This document shows, in pieces, positions 3,205 to 32,832 of a DNA stretch of 32,832 nt. This DNA comes from Pisciglobus halotolerans (GTDB lineage Bacteria > Bacillota > Bacilli > Lactobacillales > Carnobacteriaceae). The position numbers were made by a program, and so were the translations under genes. Position 1 is the first letter of the stretch; every line of letters starts with the position of its first letter. The stretch spans positions 1 to 32,832 of the forward strand of contig NZ_FOQE01000025.1 of the NCBI RefSeq assembly GCF_900113675.1, written 5' to 3'. Below the pieces are notes generated by a model. That model searched no databases, was not told the DNA's origin, and worked only from the letters and a program-made list of their open reading frames with translations.

Positions 3205-4467
3205 TTAAACAAGTTTCACTAAGAAGTATTTTTTCTTGCCGCGGCGGACTAAGATAAATTTGCCTTCAAAAGAGTTTTCTGGTGTGATGACAGCTTCCAC
3301 ATCTGTTTCTTTTTCTCCATTGATGGAGATGGCGCCATTTTTAAGGTCTTCACGGGCTTGTCTTCTGGAAGGTTCAATACCCACCACATCGACTAACCAC
3401 TCTACAATATTACGCGCTTCTTTGGGAGATTCAAAAGTTGGCATGTGCTTAAAGCCTTCTTCGATCTGATCAGCCGTCAAATCCTTGACATCACCAGAGA
3501 AAAGAGCGGCACTTATTTTTTCAGCGTCTTCAAGAGCCGCTTTACCATGCACGAATTGGGTCATTTCACGAGCCAATGTTTTTTGTGCTTCACGTTTATG
3601 CGGTTCAGCTGCTACTTTTTCAGCCAATGCATTGATGTCTTCTTCTGACAAGAAAGTAAAGTATTTCAAGTATTTGATCACATCTCGGTCATCTTGGTTT
3701 AGCCAAAACTGGTAAAATTCGTAAGGTGTTGTTTTTTCGGGATCCAGCCAAACTGCTCCACCTGCTGTTTTGCCAAATTTTGTGCCATCAGCTTTCAGCA
3801 TCAATGGAATCGTTAAACCGAAAGCTTTTGCGTCAGCACCTTCTTGCTTGCGAATGTATTCAAGCCCGGCTGTAATGTTTCCCCATTGATCAGCTCCGCC
3901 AATTTGCAATTGGACATCTTCTTCTTTGTATAAATGCAAGAAGTCGATGGACTGAAGAATTTGGTAAGTAAATTCAGTAAAGGAAATACCTGTTTCTAAT
4001 CGACTGGAAACAATTTCCTTAGCAAGCATCGTGTTGACATTAAAACTTTTACCAATATTTCTTAAAAAATCAAGCAGTGTCAAATCCTTTGTCCAATCAA
4101 GGTTGTTGACGAGACGAATGGCTTTTTCGTCTTTGCCAGCGTCAAATAGCTGCTCCATTTGTTCTGTTAGTTTTGCAGCATTTTGCTCAACTTGTTCTTT
4201 AGACTGCAGCACCCGTTCTTGAGATTTGCCGCTCGGATCGCCAATCGATCCAGTTGCACCGCCAATCACAATCACTGGACGATGCCCAGCTAGCTGGAAC
4301 CTTTTTAAGATCATAAAAGGAATCAAATGACCAATGTGCATACTGCCAGTCGGATCGATTCCGCAGTAAACCCCGATTTTCTTTTCTTGTAATAATTCAC
4401 GCAAACCTTCTTCATCCGTTTGTTGATTGATGGCGCCGCGCCATGTTAACTCTTCTAAAATGTCCAT
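3205..4467 (-). CDS. tyrS: Tyrosyl-tRNA synthetase
   Basis: A class I aminoacyl-tRNA synthetase of 420 residues, which charges tRNA-Tyr with tyrosine in the cytoplasm. The HIGH motif is at residues 44-47 (SMHIGHL). The KMSKS counterpart is KFGKT at 230-234, as in bacterial TyrRS. The tyrosine pocket segment QLQIGGADQWGNI is at about 186-198. An S4 RNA-binding domain occupies about 354-415 (EPSRRQAREDLKNGAISING). Length is that of Bacillus-type TyrRS. AAGGAGAG lies about 7 bases before the ATG. Expression is controlled by the Tyr T-box directly upstream. A second tyrosyl synthetase gene is common in enterococci, so this may be one of two. Confidence 0.98.
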   Translation of the reverse strand: MDILEELTWRGAINQQTDEEGLRELLQEKKIGVYCGIDPTGSMHIGHLIPFMILKRFQLAGHRPVIVIGGATGSIGDPSGKSQERVLQSKEQVEQNAAKLTEQMEQLFDAGKDEKAIRLVNNLDWTKDLTLLDFLRNIGKSFNVNTMLAKEIVSSRLETGISFTEFTYQILQSIDFLHLYKEEDVQLQIGGADQWGNITAGLEYIRKQEGADAKAFGLTIPLMLKADGTKFGKTAGGAVWLDPEKTTPYEFYQFWLNQDDRDVIKYLKYFTFLSEEDINALAEKVAAEPHKREAQKTLAREMTQFVHGKAALEDAEKISAALFSGDVKDLTADQIEEGFKHMPTFESPKEARNIVEWLVDVVGIEPSRRQAREDLKNGAISINGEKETDVEAVITPENSFEGKFILVRRGKKKYFLVKLV

Positions 4468-4500: not shown

Positions 4501-4761
4501 AAAAATAAAAAAGCCCCGATGCGTAAAGAATATTCTTTACCCATCGGGACGAAAAAATTTCCGTGTTACCACCCAATTTGCATGCAGTTGCTGCATACCA
4601 CTCGTTTACTATTATCGCCAGTATCGCGCTTGAAATGAATCAAGTTACTCCTGAGTGTAATTCGGATCGATGATATGTATCGGATTCCAGCAACCTCCGA
4701 CTCTCTATAAACAGGGATCATATCCTACTGCGCTCATTCACAGTAAAAAAGCTATTCGAAT
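4501..4761 (-). promoter_or_regulatory. Tyrosine-specific T-box leader of tyrS
   Basis: Read on the minus strand, the leader contains AGTAGGATATGATCCC, the GGTTGCTGGAATCCG segment of stem I, a specifier loop GAATTACAC, the T-box sequence TGGGTGGTAACACGG (4561-4575), and a terminator hairpin. The specifier codon is TAC (Tyr) at 4657-4659. The terminator stem GTCCCGATG/CATCGGGGC spans 4513-4550, with a T-rich tail at 4501-4512. Uncharged tRNA-Tyr is expected to pair with TAC and the T-box bulge, favouring antitermination and tyrS expression. The leader ends about 34 bases before the start codon. Confidence 0.95.
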
Positions 4762-4802: not shown

Positions 4803-4862
4803 AAAGGACGCGGAGCGAGTCTCTGCCTCGTGCAGCTCAACTAAAAAAGCAGGATATGGGGC
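4803..4862 (-). repeat. Inverted copy of the TAGTTGAGCTGC dispersed repeat
   Basis: Read on the minus strand it contains ATATCCTGCTTTTTTAGTTG, then AGCTGC, GGCAGAG, CTCGCTCCGCGTCC. This matches the two copies at 167-352, in the opposite orientation. It lies immediately outside the tyrS promoter. Confidence 0.55.
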
Positions 4863-4907
4863 GACCCCGAAAGAACAATTAAGTCGCAAAGATCTTTGGT
4901 TTTTCTC

Positions 4908-5245
4908 CCTATCACGTTGGAACGATTTGCTGTCAAATTGCATAACAGTCGATCCTGTGAACAAGTTAAAGTTTTTATACTCTAAACTTGTTCACAGAGG
5001 ACTGGTCTATGAACAAGTTAAAGCATTTATACTCTGAACTTGTTCACAGAGGACTGGTCTATGAACAAGTTGCAGCTTTTACGTTCTGAACTTGTCCACA
5101 GAGGTCTGATCTATGAACAAGTTAAAGCTTTTATACTCTGAACTTGTTCACAGAAGCCTGTTCTATGAACAAGTTGCAGCACCATAACATTCAACATGTG
5201 CTGCTAAACATAATCTGTTAATATCTTTCTAAAATCCATCACTTC
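4908..5245 (+). repeat. 52-bp tandem repeat array 1 with leader and trailer
   Basis: Five units begin at 4959, 5011, 5063, 5115 and 5167, all exactly 52 bases apart. Each full unit reads GAACAAGTT, about 16 variable bases, then AACTTGTTCACAG and a GGACTGGTCTAT-type linker. CTGTGAACAAGTT and AACTTGTTCACAG are perfect complements, so each unit can fold as a hairpin. The leader at 4908-4958 (CCTATCACGTTGGAACGATT) and the trailer at 5176-5245 (ending TCTTTCTAAAATCCATCA) match those of array 3. No coding frame explains the area. From 5246 to 5502 I see only AT-rich spacer. The array lies between the divergent tyrS and ytrA promoters. Confidence 0.95.
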
Positions 5246-9607: not shown

Positions 9608-10099
9608 TTCTTAACTCCTTATGCACATATGTTTCAATGTTGAATCTCTTTAACCCCTTCAAGTTTAATTTCAGAAAACCACTTTTCAAAAAAATAGCCT
9701 TCAATTTTCTAAGGGGGTTTCATACTTTCTTTTTTAATGAGGAAAAGTCGGTGAAGCGGCAACTTTCAAAGAACGATTGGAACGCATCTGTTTTTCATCA
9801 CCATCAGTGACTTGTTTGTCCATCAATTTCATTTCCCGAGTGTGGTTACTAAACCATTATGTCAAAAAAGAAACTACAATCCATAGCTTGCAGCGTGTTT
9901 TCCGCCGTCCTTTTCCCGACCGAATGCTCTGTCTGCCGAAAAAAGCATAAACGTTTGTGTACATGCATGATTACTGCCTCGTTGACGATAAGAAGACAGC
10001 TAATGACCAATTTTAATTTTTAATAGATAATGCCATCGTGTTGCTTGAAAAAAAGTTTTTTCTGCGTTAAGGTAAAGGTATCAAATAAAATAAAAAACA
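9608..10099. other. Spacer of about 490 bases, possibly with decayed coding remnants
   Basis: No intact gene is seen. On the minus strand a short frame ending at about 9737 encodes MKLMDKQVTDGDEKQMRSNR-like residues after a stop, and another short frame upstream encodes YAFFGRQSIRSGKGR-like residues. These could be remains of a degraded gene or chance. The last part (about 10020-10099) should contain the promoter of the lysine riboswitch transcript, but I could not pick one hexamer pair with confidence. Confidence 0.35.
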
Positions 10100-10331
10100 T
10101 TCAGATAGAGGCGCGATTTTTATTAGTAATTTTTTGGAGGATGACACCTATGAAAAAAGAAGAAAGGAAAAATCGCCGAAGTGACAGGGACTGTCAAAAA
10201 CCTGTTGCTGGGATTGGATAAAAGATATCCAATACTGTCATAGCTTTAGCTATGGAGGACTATCGAGCAATGGCGTGCAGCATATGTAATATTCCAGCAC
10301 CTTGAGCCGATAACGACTCCGGGTGTTTTTT
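10100..10331 (+). promoter_or_regulatory. Lysine riboswitch with terminator (L box)
   Basis: The aptamer (about 10100-10268) contains the conserved elements of the lysine class in order: GATAGAGGCGCGA (10104 onward), TTAGTAA, TTGGAGGA, AATCGCCGAAG, GCTGGGATTGG, ACTGTCATAGC, GCTATGGAGGACTATC. P1 is GATAG (10104-10108) with CTATC (10260-10264). The order and bases match the Bacillus lysC leader as I know it. The expression platform is a terminator: CACCTTGAG (10298-10306) with CTCCGGGTG (10317-10325), followed by T6. Lysine binding should favour termination, so the transporter downstream is expected to be made when lysine is scarce. Confidence 0.93.
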
Positions 10332-15808: not shown

Positions 15809-16344
15809 ATGTATACAGCGTTGAGAAGAAAAAGTGGGTTTCTCAGTTTAGTCCTTCAAATAACAGCAATTTTTGATATTCTTTTGACTTTATTGTTATT
15901 AGGCTCGTTTATTACCGGTTTTATGGAAGTGACTGATCGCAATGAACCAAGAGCGATGTTTGCACTTTTTGATATTGGCTTCAGTACTCATTCAAACAAC
16001 ACAATAGATTATTATATTTTGTTGGGTAACAGTTTGTTAGCCAACGCTCTGTTTATTGCGATGCTGTTTAAAGGCAGCTTCATTTTCAAAGATATCTCAA
16101 ACGGACTTTCTCCTTTTGACGCTATTCAAGTAAAGCGGCTAAAGAATATTTTCTGGCTTATGTCAGTTCAGCTGTTCTTCCGCTCATTTTAGATAATGTT
16201 TTACACTGGCTGATAACATTCAGCGGCTACTATCGCCTTAGGGTAGACCTTGGTGAAATACTAATTGCGCTTCTTCTTTACACAGTGGCCGAGATTTTTT
16301 CGTACGGTTCTTCCCTGCAGCAAGAAATTGATGAAACACTATAG
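15809..16344 (+). pseudogene. DUF2975 family membrane protein, frameshifted
   Basis: The first frame gives 127 residues from the ATG at 15809 (after AAAAAGGAGG) and stops at 16192. The family's C-terminal part continues in another frame: LDNVLHWLITFSGYYRLRVD and onward to AEIFSYGSSLQQEIDETL, ending with a stop at 16344. The two frames join near 16164-16171 (GTTCAGCTG), and a one-base loss would account for it. Reconstructed length is about 178 residues with four membrane segments, normal for DUF2975. The gene is immediately followed by a small XRE regulator, the usual partner (as in the YoaS/YozG pair of Bacillus). It may be a true inactivation, a sequencing error, or phase variation; a read-level check decides. 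Confidence 0.85.
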
Positions 16345-17450: not shown

Positions 17451-17561
17451 TACCTGTTAAATAAAGGGAAATTAGAAACCCTTGCATGGCCTATTATTCA
17501 GTTGGCATCAACACTGCAACGAACTTCATAAACGATCTATGAATATCTACTGAATGTATTG

Positions 17562-17611
17562 GCCATATGATGGTTATTTCCACTTCTTCTGTCCCTTTGC
17601 ATAAAGAGCCT
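17562..17611 (+). repeat. Dispersed motif beside array 2
   Basis: CCACTTCTTCTGTCCCTTTG matches CCGCTTCTTCTGTCCCATTA at about 23573 next to array 3. Similarity extends to both sides (CCATA upstream, and AACTT followed by GACAAA downstream). No gene is seen in 17451-18260 apart from repeats. Confidence 0.5.
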
Positions 17612-17679
17612 TTTGATCCTTAAACTTTAGCACTGACAAATGTATACCAACCCCCTTATAACCTCTGAGTTGGTAAGAT

Positions 17680-18060
17680 ACTCAGTTTGTTGCGCATCAA
17701 CTTGAGCTGGTTTCGAACGCTGACGCTCATTGACCAACTCAAATAAGTTGCAGTCCCTGAGTTCGTCATTAACGCCTCTTATTGACCAACTCAAATAAGT
17801 TGTAGCCCCTGAGTTCGTCATTAAAGCAACTTATTGACCAACTCAAATAAGTTACAGCCCCTGAGTTCGTCATTAAAGCTACTTATTGACCAACTCAAAT
17901 AAGTTGTGGCCCTCGAGTTCGTCATTAACGCTACTTATTGACCAACTCAAACAAGTTGCAGTACTTGAGTTTGTTATTAATGCCTCTTATTGACCAACTC
18001 AAACAAGTTGCAGTACTTGAGTTTGTTATTAATGCCTCTTAATTGACCAACTCAAACTGA
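17680..18060 (+). repeat. 52-bp tandem repeat array 2, different unit sequence
   Basis: GACCAACTCA begins at 17732, 17784, 17836, 17888, 17940, 17992 and 18045: a period of 52, with one 53 at the end. A degenerate unit precedes the first (about 17680). The unit reads TGACCAACTCAAATAAGTTG, then CAGTCCCTGAGTTCGTCATT and a CTTAT-ending linker. TGACCAACTCA pairs with TGAGTTCGTCA, with one mismatch, across about 17 bases. The unit is not the same as in arrays 1, 3 and 4, but some units share ACAAGTTGCAG with them. The array lies between the HAD phosphatase gene and the metS promoter. Confidence 0.93.
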
Positions 18061-18261
18061 TTGCAGTCTTCGAATACAAAAATTTAAAAAGAAATATCCT
18101 CTATTGAGCGCAGCTTACATCATAAATAATGTCTCCATACCTATACCTATCAAAAAATCATCCATTTAGAAAGAGAAGACTGCTTTCTAAAGTGTGATCA
18201 TTGTAGTGATAAATAGAAGAGAGCAAATTCTTTCAAAAGGTCGCGTCTTTACTGATTTTTA

Positions 18262-22787: not shown

Positions 22788-22799
22788 ATCTTTAGCTTT

Positions 22800-23500
22800 C
22801 CTATTATGAGGGGACCGATTCACTGCAAAACGGCAAGATAGCCAAGTCTGTGAACGAGTTGAAAATTTTATTTACTGAACTTGATCACAGAAGCCTAGTC
22901 TATGAACGAGTTGAAGGATTTATTTACTGAACTTGATCACAGAAGCCTAGTCTGTGAACGAGTTGAAGATTTTATTTACTGAACTTGATCACAGAAGCTT
23001 GGTCTGTGAACAAGTTGAAGGATTTATTCACTGAACTTGATCACAGAAGCCTAGTCTGTGAACAAGTTGAAGATTTTATTTACTGAACTTGATCACAGAA
23101 GCCTGGTCTGTGAACAAGTTGAAGGCTTTATTCACTGAACTTGATCACAGAAGCCTAGTCTGTGAACGAGTTGCAGGCTTTTTTACTGAACTTGATCACA
23201 GAAGCCTGGGCTATGAACGAGTTGCAGCTTTTACACTTTGAACTTGATCACAGAAGCCTGGTTTGTGAACAAGTTGAAGATTTTATTTACTGAACTTGAT
23301 CATAGAAGCCTAGTCTGTGAACAAGTTGAAGATTTTATTTACTGAACTTGATCACAGAAGCTTGGTCTGTGAACAAGTTGAAGGATTTATTCACTGAACT
23401 TGATTACAGAAGCTTGGTCTGTGAACAAGTTGCAGCGCAATAGCGTTCATCTTACGCTATTGAATATCGTCTGCTAGCATCTTTCTAAAATTCATCAATC
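22800..23500 (+). repeat. 52-bp tandem repeat array 3 with leader and trailer
   Basis: Twelve units begin at 22852, 22904, 22956, 23008, 23060, 23112, 23164, 23215, 23267, 23319, 23371 and 23423, all 52 apart except one 51. The unit reads GAACAAGTTGAAGATTTTAT, then TTACTGAACTTGATCACAGA and AGCCTAGTCTGT. The arms CTGTGAACAAGTT and AACTTGATCACAG are complements with one mismatch. The leader at 22800-22851 and the trailer to 23500 match array 1; TCTTTCTAAAAT lies 57 bases after the start of the last unit in both. The 23501-23800 spacer contains only another dispersed motif. It lies between rsmA and veg. Confidence 0.96.
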
Positions 23501-23555
23501 TTATACCGAGTGCAAATTGAAATATTTAAATAATAAAACTTCTTAGACCATAGAC

Positions 23556-23602
23556 CATACAGTTATTGCCGCTTCTTCTGTCCCATTACGTGAAGGAAAC
23601 CA
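23556..23602 (+). repeat. Dispersed motif beyond array 3
   Basis: ATAGACCATACAGTTATTGC followed by CGCTTCTTCTGTCCCATTAC. The first half matches 113-135 and the second half matches 17577 onward, so this copy links the two partial ones. Confidence 0.5.
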
Positions 23603-23807
23603 GCAAACTTAAGGAGCCGACAAAGCAAGTCCATTTTCTAAAAGAAATTTTCGAATCATAAAAGATAGCGCTATTTCTAAATTTTCCACATGAGTATAAG
23701 ATGAGAGACCGGATTGCAAATAAAATGTAAAGGCTTTGATATCGTTGCTTTCAGCCCTTTTAAATGAGAGATTTATTATTTGAAGTCAATTTTCTAATAT
23801 GGTATAC

Positions 23808-32486: not shown

Positions 32487-32711
32487 CAGATTAAAAGTTT
32501 TGAAATGATCCTTTTAACGATTGAGCGACGATTATGAAATGTCCGGCAGCTCTTTAATCGTAGTTTAAAGAGCCTGACCTCCTTTCAAACAACCGTTTCA
32601 ACTGGCATTGTGCCGGTGGTATTTGCATCTCTTCTCAAAATCAAAAGCGGAAAAAGGATCAAAGCTGCGCTGCGCTCGCTTTGTAAACATTTGAGGACAG
32701 AGTCAAGTGGA

Positions 32712-32832
32712 AATGCAGCGACTTGTTCACAGCAGGCAGTCCTATGAACAAGTTCAGTGAAAAGCTGCCTCAACTCGTTCACAGAAGGTAGTCCTGTGAA
32801 CAAGTTCAGTAAAAAGCTGATGCAACTCGTTC
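32712..32832 (-). repeat. 52-bp tandem repeat array 4, cut by the window end
   Basis: Read on the minus strand, units GAACGAGTTGCATCAGCTTT and GAACGAGTTGAGGCAGCTTT are followed by TTACTGAACTTGTTCACAGG-type right arms. On the plus strand GAACAAGTTCAGT occurs at 32746 and 32798, exactly 52 apart. The unit is closest to arrays 1 and 3 and points in the opposite orientation. The leader side lies outside the window. Between 32487 and 32711 no gene is seen. Confidence 0.9.

Follow-up and report, generated by a model that had tools for sequence, protein, structure and literature searches.

A probable BOX-type, MITE-like repeat with palindromic 52-bp modules in a genome placed in or near the Carnobacteriaceae

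Introduction

Are two tandem arrays with similar sequence before and after their repeats copies of one element, or independent products of slippage? The question is raised by contig C84, which is the window of this study (the whole stretch of DNA analyzed, 32,832 bp) and belongs to a genome of 2,437,433 bases (2.44 Mb) in 88 contigs. A first-pass annotation of the window had described arrays 1 and 3 as one modular element that has a leader and a trailer as its ends and may have spread by some mobilization route or been copied by recombination. Here we compare these arrays with the other copies in the genome and weigh the readings that they allow.

Results

In the window, TRF detected four tandem arrays with a period of 52 bp, at positions 4958 to 5175, 17729 to 18068, 22840 to 23432, and 32721 to 32832 (arrays 1 to 4). 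Based on unit sequence, arrays 1, 3, and 4 belong to family A and array 2 to family B (see below). With the unit HMM and TRF combined, array 1 extends from 4955 to 5180 on the plus strand (4.2 units by TRF, each an imperfect palindrome plus a linker), array 3 from 22848 to 23435 on the plus strand (11.4 units by TRF), and array 4 from 32706 to 32832 on the minus strand. Array 4 runs off the contig, which ends at 32832 inside it, and arrays were also found at the ends of contigs C48, C62, C63, and C34. Therefore, the arrays are a probable cause of breaks in the assembly, and the numbers and lengths given for them here are minimum values.

Since the window KsgA is closest to those of a Carnobacterium MAG (72%) and Isobaculum melis (71%), the nearest named genomes returned (a set that may lack records very close to the window), this protein sequence places the host in or near the Carnobacteriaceae. 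At the gathering threshold, Rfam recognized in the window only a T-box (4542 to 4750, minus strand, before tyrS) and a lysine riboswitch (10098 to 10270) and nothing over the four arrays, and known RNA families were rejected. A CRISPR array was rejected as well: in the arrays inspected, the 52-bp units follow head to tail without unique spacers, and within-array identity is 0.83 to 0.85 over all 52 bp.

The leader strings start at 4908 in front of array 1 (CCTATCACGTTGGAACGATT) and at 22800 in front of array 3 (CCTATTATGAGGGGACCGAT), and the trailer string TCTTTCTAAAAT starts at 5224 and 23480, all as annotated at first. The leader-to-unit spacing is similar in both arrays, but the 51 to 52 bases originally given, which had been counted to another unit start, become 47 and 48 in the register of CTGTGAAC (at 4955 and 22848). 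Each trailer string begins 61 bases past the start of the last partial unit (CTATGAAC/CTGTGAAC), which equals the 57 bases counted earlier from GAAC, and is followed by CCATCA in array 1 and TCATCA in array 3, so that the annotated CATCA is present in both.

For a comparison with independent copies, HMMs were built from 12 leaders and 7 trailers, all from outside the window (other contigs). The leader HMM matched the leader of array 1 at 4885 to 4945 (plus strand; E = 3.2e-10), which is truncated on its left side and was also 88 to 89% identical by BLAST to the leaders of L061 and L069. It further matched the leader of array 3 at 22791 to 22839 (plus strand; E = 5.8e-8), which is truncated next to a hairpin that was read from the sequence after ksgA. 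The trailer HMM matched the trailers of array 1 (5184 to 5241, plus strand; E = 3e-8) and array 3 (23438 to 23516, plus strand; E = 3e-11), and also the far right end of the element with array 2 (18159 to 18208; E = 4.6e-8). As a control, the window was shuffled 20 times in 2-base blocks and the results were searched together as a single database; here, the best leader HMM match had an E value of 0.086, and the trailer HMM gave no match at E values up to 1. Against this background, E values of 3e-8 to 3e-11 (5.8e-8 for the leader of array 3) bear out the proposal that arrays 1 and 3 represent one modular element. A weaker leader HMM match (32683 to 32643, minus strand; E = 7.9e-4) corresponds to a leader-like palindromic piece beside array 4. 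The remaining trailer HMM matches at E values up to 1, at 16124 to 16164 (0.61) and 3251 to 3279 (0.81), look like chance.

We then queried the genome with array 1 and afterward with a leader, a trailer, the element of array 2, and a further array, which was met through a match to a leader piece, and fetched the stretches around the matches. TRF was run over the window and 72 loci; periods of 40 to 70 and the best row per array were kept, and rows with multiples of the period or shorter subperiods were dropped, which left a few short arrays uncounted (e.g., in L074 and L084). In the fetched stretches, 66 tandem arrays were counted, 65 with a period of 52 and one with a period of 53; the loci had been chosen by similarity, and the period is therefore not independent within a unit family. 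Best-rotation matching assigned 30 arrays to family A, 24 to B, and 12 to C. One array assigned to C (L075:5995) is of type A by its arm motifs, so that later analyses used 31 A, 24 B, and 11 C arrays. L233 (C24:388-1225), counted as B, holds two 52-bp arrays built from another divergent unit (TTGAGTGTGTGATAAAGC...), which may represent a fourth family.

Array-free flanks were compared by all-against-all BLAST (E threshold 1e-4; ordered pairs). Within family A, 106 left-left and 46 right-right pairs were obtained, and within family B, 34 and 30, respectively. Flanks of A and B arrays matched each other in 12 left-left and 14 right-right pairs in each direction. Left-right pairs on the plus strand were limited to 2 in either direction within A and 4 in either direction within B. 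Of the minus-strand pairs, most involved C (A left with C left 7 and B left with C right 7 each way; 1 or 2 for the others). A dispersed palindrome explains a part of the A-C matches, and some flank edges may contain degenerate unit sequence. Altogether, 34 of the 66 arrays have at least one same-side flank in common with another array (19/30 A, 11/24 B, and 4/12 C), and both flanks are common in 11 A, 5 B, and no C arrays; in the other 32, none was detected. Flank similarity between the copies is mostly specific for side and strand and, with the leave-out HMMs, it stayed above background with more copies included.

A and B elements carry different repeats and have both outer ends in common, with terminal inverted repeats of roughly 17 bp. 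Better-preserved copies reach further out on both sides: on the left, the left-end module common to them leads to an end resembling TAACACTACAACGAACA, and on the right, AGAAAGAGAAGACTGCTTTCTAAAG leads to one resembling TGTTCRTTGTAGTGTTA. Both ends were found in six elements, which are 181 to 797 bp long and in which the left end agrees with the reverse complement of the right end at 11 to 16 of 17 positions (one left end is shifted by a base). The end pattern GTTCRTTGYAGTGTTA, with up to 2 mismatches allowed, gave 25 matches, as opposed to 9 for a reversed control; because of these 9, some of the weaker end-pattern matches are expected by chance.

In four A copies, the left inverted terminal repeat is located 197 to 269 bp before the array, whereas the leader kept is 70 bp in array 1 and 57 bp in array 3. 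On the right, full copies extend about 40 to 60 bp further than arrays 1 and 3, the trailer of array 1 being truncated before the inverted terminal repeat. Compared with the fuller copies, arrays 1 and 3 are copies truncated on both sides, and their leader and trailer are internal modules. The initial boundaries were consequently misplaced as element ends, since the inverted terminal repeats lie further out.

The complete element in the window is that of array 2, which spans 704 bp (17508 to 18211). From left to right on the plus strand, unless indicated otherwise, it consists of the left inverted terminal repeat (17509 to 17524, minus strand; pattern GTTCRTTGYAGTGTTA with 1 mismatch), the left-end module common to A and B elements (17539 to 17609; HMM E = 1.1e-11, which is not an independent value because the iterated HMM included window matches), a B-type left module (17610 to 17728), array 2 itself (17729 to 18068; 6.5 B-type units by TRF), and a B-type right module (18069 to 18211). 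The left modules matched the left flanks of L173, L171, L211, L213, and L214 by BLAST over about 17517 to 17717 (E = 8e-24 to 5e-31). The right module, supported by BLAST to the right flanks of L211, L173, L214, and L171 (E = 1e-30 to 5e-34) and by the above-mentioned trailer HMM match (E = 4.6e-8), ends in the right inverted terminal repeat (18196 to 18211; pattern with 2 mismatches). The number of 52-bp modules varies from zero to about 12 (in L061 and L213). At least two copies have no repeats: in L168 (C50:39588-39759) and L169 (C87), the left module runs straight into the right module.

Several further pieces of the element were noted. L172 (C75:67900-69900) holds an element copy without a 52-bp array at locus positions 949 to 1226, beside which two copies of a part of the left-end module form a perfect inverted repeat (24-bp arms, six bases between them). 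At the right end of L211 (C41:148184 onward), a second left-end-like module starts directly after the right terminal repeat, an arrangement that suggests a nested or tandem insertion. In the window, a separate fragment of the shared left-end module is located just after array 3 (23538 to 23615, plus strand; E = 1.5e-17 with an iterated HMM that included window matches), and a possible one near the window start, away from any array (100 to 142; E = 3e-4). In addition, there is a dispersed GCGAGC-rich palindrome repeat, which was found at 4861 to 4892 in the window, in L177 (920 to 1041), and at C79:7411-7531, C42:19841-19962, C75:18759-18865, and C35:43749-43831; a 28-bp piece of it (query positions 115 to 142) is present at many further sites. 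Part of this repeat joins the A left module, and part adjoins C arrays.

The consensus units of the three families are TGAACTTGATCACAGAAGCCTGGTCTGTGAACAAGTTGAAGCTTTTACGCTC (A), TGAGTTTGTCATTAACGCCTCTTATTGACCAACTCAAACTAGTTGCGGCTCT (B), and TGAGTTGGAACGATAACCGATTTGCGTTCCTACTCAAATGAGTTTTGGTCCG (C). B and C units have the same base at 27 of 52 positions in register, while for A the best rotation on this strand gives at most 22 of 52 identical positions with B or C. In each family, the unit is an imperfect palindrome plus a linker with a single dyad register, in which the Watson-Crick fraction is 0.57 to 0.62 over the unit compared to 0.42 or less in the next register. The conserved positions are mainly those of the palindrome arms, while loop and linker are more variable. 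Within families, the dyad register did not lead in covariation, and arm changes often break pairs: of the 31 A consensuses, for example, 10 have neither a standard nor a wobble pair at 13-27, and of the 24 B consensuses, 17 have T-T or A-A at 12-25. With B and C combined, the dyad register tied with another register. Compared to mononucleotide shuffles, folding of single-unit consensuses gave median z values of -2.35 (A), -1.82 (B), and -0.85 (C), and hairpin tests per array on TRF consensuses were uneven, with 0 to 186 of 200 shuffles reaching the observed value. We conclude that the palindrome is real. With no leading covariation in the arms and pairing broken at several arm positions, however, the data do not establish a stem, whether in RNA or as a cruciform.

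The step from unit to unit was 52 bp in 229 of 240 measured cases (in this count, about half of the A units were anchored). Identity between units of one array was 0.831 (A), 0.843 (B), and 0.852 (C), and between arrays of one family it was 0.663, 0.678, and 0.667, respectively. The higher likeness within than between arrays supports the view that arrays expand and are homogenized in place.

The arrays are intergenic, none of the 66 lying mostly inside an ORF of at least 100 aa. They are located in 25 codirectional, 16 divergent, and 13 convergent gaps (12 undetermined), compared to 32, 13, and 7, respectively, for array-free background gaps of the same loci. Array orientation is not fixed relative to codirectional genes (9 same strand, 16 opposite). 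The gap between ksgA and veg is 1129 bp in the window; in the nearest two of the named relatives that could be read, it is 150 and 143 bp. Using a motif search, veg was found within 3 kb in 5 of 23 relatives tried; the other three gaps were 357, 1221, and 1522 bp, the latter two in Lederbergia and Bacillus, possibly with other genes in between.

The genomes searched included no further member of its genus. Among 18 genomes of its family (itself included), the A query matched this genome only. Among 246 genomes of the order, the B query matched this genome, and its matches elsewhere were limited to two marginal ones (41 bits, about 33 bases each), so that relatives of A and B in the genomes searched are marginal at most. 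Spread on plasmids, phages, or viruses was rejected, as there was no match to the A element in plasmid and phage collections, to the B element in the plasmid collection, or, in viral contigs, to an exact unit pattern of A and one of B. Many tandem-repeat rows with periods of 27 to 125 were detected in 80 ksgA loci from other species, one of them with a period of 52 (2.2 copies; L118, Pontibacillus); by eye, none of these repeats resembles A, B, or C. In the part of the literature covered by our search, we found no description of these repeats.

Immediately beyond the CACTAC-type ends, the 4-bp motif TTAR is identical on both sides in three of the six complete elements (TTAA in L173 and L172, TTAG in L216), and the 4 bases differ in the other three (L211, the array 2 element of the window, and L073). 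With regard to the target duplications, which the first-pass annotation had proposed to look for, the match may represent an old 4-bp target duplication or, where it is TTAA, a part of the inverted end. The inverted ends suggest mobilization, one of the two routes first considered, and do not by themselves show transposition. Concerning a possible enzyme, mobilization of the IS630 type was considered for the TA at the ends and rejected, because the corresponding DDE_3 domain (PF13358) is absent from the genome. An autonomous copy at isolated ends was also rejected: by eye, the ORFs at four isolated end matches (L247, L248, L263, and L267), at least one of which may be a chance match, look like ordinary chromosomal genes, and no transposase was recognized among them.

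Discussion

Arrays 1 and 3 are, in our judgment, probably truncated copies of a BOX-type, MITE-like nonautonomous element, whose palindromic modules expand in place. The element is made up of n palindromic 52-bp modules between left modules and a right module, with a terminal inverted repeat on each outer side. MITE-like insertion is the most likely origin of its copies, with a putative transposase acting in trans on the inverted ends of roughly 17 bp. After insertion, the 52-bp modules would have expanded, contracted, and been homogenized in place by slippage or unequal recombination, and many copies would then have lost their ends. We infer an enzyme supplied by another element and the lack of a host function; the element is probably a parasite. 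Since 32 of the 66 arrays have no common flank, arrays may also arise or persist without ends. It also counts against this explanation that the period of 52 is kept despite a divergence of roughly one third between arrays, which simple neutral slippage does not predict. Least explained of all is the constant 52-bp length in families of divergent sequence.

One possibility, which we regard as rather unlikely, is that a DNA-binding protein, be it nucleoid-associated, a transposase, or a segregation protein, uses the arrays as phased sites and that the unit length is kept by selection. At 10.4 bp per turn, 52 bp correspond to five helical turns, so that the palindromes would all be on the same face. 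The constancy of the period (52 in 65 of 66 arrays and 53 in the other, with nearly all measured steps equal to 52) speaks for such sites, as does the fact that A and B/C have the same period despite different sequences. Furthermore, the palindrome arms are conserved while linkers vary, and arm substitutions within families are mostly uncompensated, which fits a protein site better than an RNA stem. However, the arm sequences differ between A and B/C, so that one protein could read all of them only by shape, and arrays of one family inherit the period from their ancestor. In a specific form, which we hold to be equally improbable, the palindromes, phased along the helix, would be recognized by a protein or recombinase by which modules are amplified or moved. 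If true, this would make the element a module-amplifying mobile repeat and not a passive MITE with a minisatellite inside. That the arrays act as RNA instead, as strings of hairpins in transcripts that alter termination or stability of neighboring genes, seems unlikely to us. The one clear dyad register per family and the folding of single-unit consensuses below shuffles are in its favor, but there is no covariation signal within families and pairs are often broken. Moreover, the arrays occur in codirectional, divergent, and convergent gaps with no fixed strand, and Rfam had no match over the 9 of 66 arrays searched. At E values up to 0.1, a search of five element loci returned one weak sRNA match, below the gathering score and outside the array.

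Tandem palindromic units in intergenic DNA also occur in REPIN/BIME-type repeats mobilized by a RAYT (Y1 transposase). We consider this origin very improbable and rejected it, because no Y1_Tnp domain (PF01797) was detected here, although the search was positive in 5 of 14 control genomes; besides, the element has inverted ends and long nonpalindromic modules. We give hardly any credence to independent slippage products whose flanks resemble each other by chance. The 32 arrays without a common flank would fit such an origin, and the homogenization within arrays indicates local expansion. In contrast, the leave-out HMM matches are far below the best shuffle E value, and flank sharing is specific for side and strand. 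For arrays 1 and 3 and for the right end at array 2, the HMM matches refute independent slippage. The original argument against slippage stands insofar as flanks are shared in a side-specific manner; it has to be complemented by local expansion, to which the likeness within arrays points, and it applies to no more than 34 of the 66 arrays with regard to the flanks.

The closest architectural parallel is the BOX element of Streptococcus pneumoniae and Streptococcus suis, for which one study describes the order boxA-boxB(n)-boxC with tandem boxB, terminal inverted repeats, target site duplications, 125 copies in one pneumococcal genome, a proposed partner IS, and, in S. suis, more than one set of end modules that can flank the same internal module (PMC3049150). 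Like BOX, the element is a composite intergenic repeat with conserved left and right modules, a variable number of tandem internal modules including zero, terminal inverted repeats, and many copies per genome, the common flanks being present in 34 of 66 arrays. Unlike BOX, it has three unit families, all with a 52-bp period, and is found in a host in or near the Carnobacteriaceae; the target site duplication is not established here and no partner IS was found with PF01797, with PF13358, or by eye at four isolated ends, in contrast to what PMC3049150 reports. The BOXA1R primer, the sole BOX sequence compared, had 7 mismatches of 22 in its best match in 264,980 bases of the genome, and the element is unrelated to BOX in sequence as far as this one primer shows.

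With MITEs, including RUP, the element has in common that it is short, noncoding, intergenic, and multicopy with inverted ends; it differs from them in its expandable internal arrays and in that no partner IS was identified and no target site duplication established here. Tandem palindromes in intergenic DNA are likewise a feature of REPIN/BIME with RAYT (PMC3116915), but this genome is without a Y1 transposase and the element has defined long ends. An interspersed mobile element with an internal tandem array is also represented by the nonautonomous Helentrons with satellite-like arrays in oyster (PMC7492417); these are eukaryotic, and no relationship is claimed.

In summary, a BOX-type architecture, described in streptococci, is present with a different sequence in the genome of another family, where it accounts for at least 66 arrays. 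In practical terms, a draft assembly can break at such arrays. For the biology of these repeats, two internal module families on one set of ends, and three families on one unit length, make it possible to ask what fixes the length of a module and how modules are swapped.
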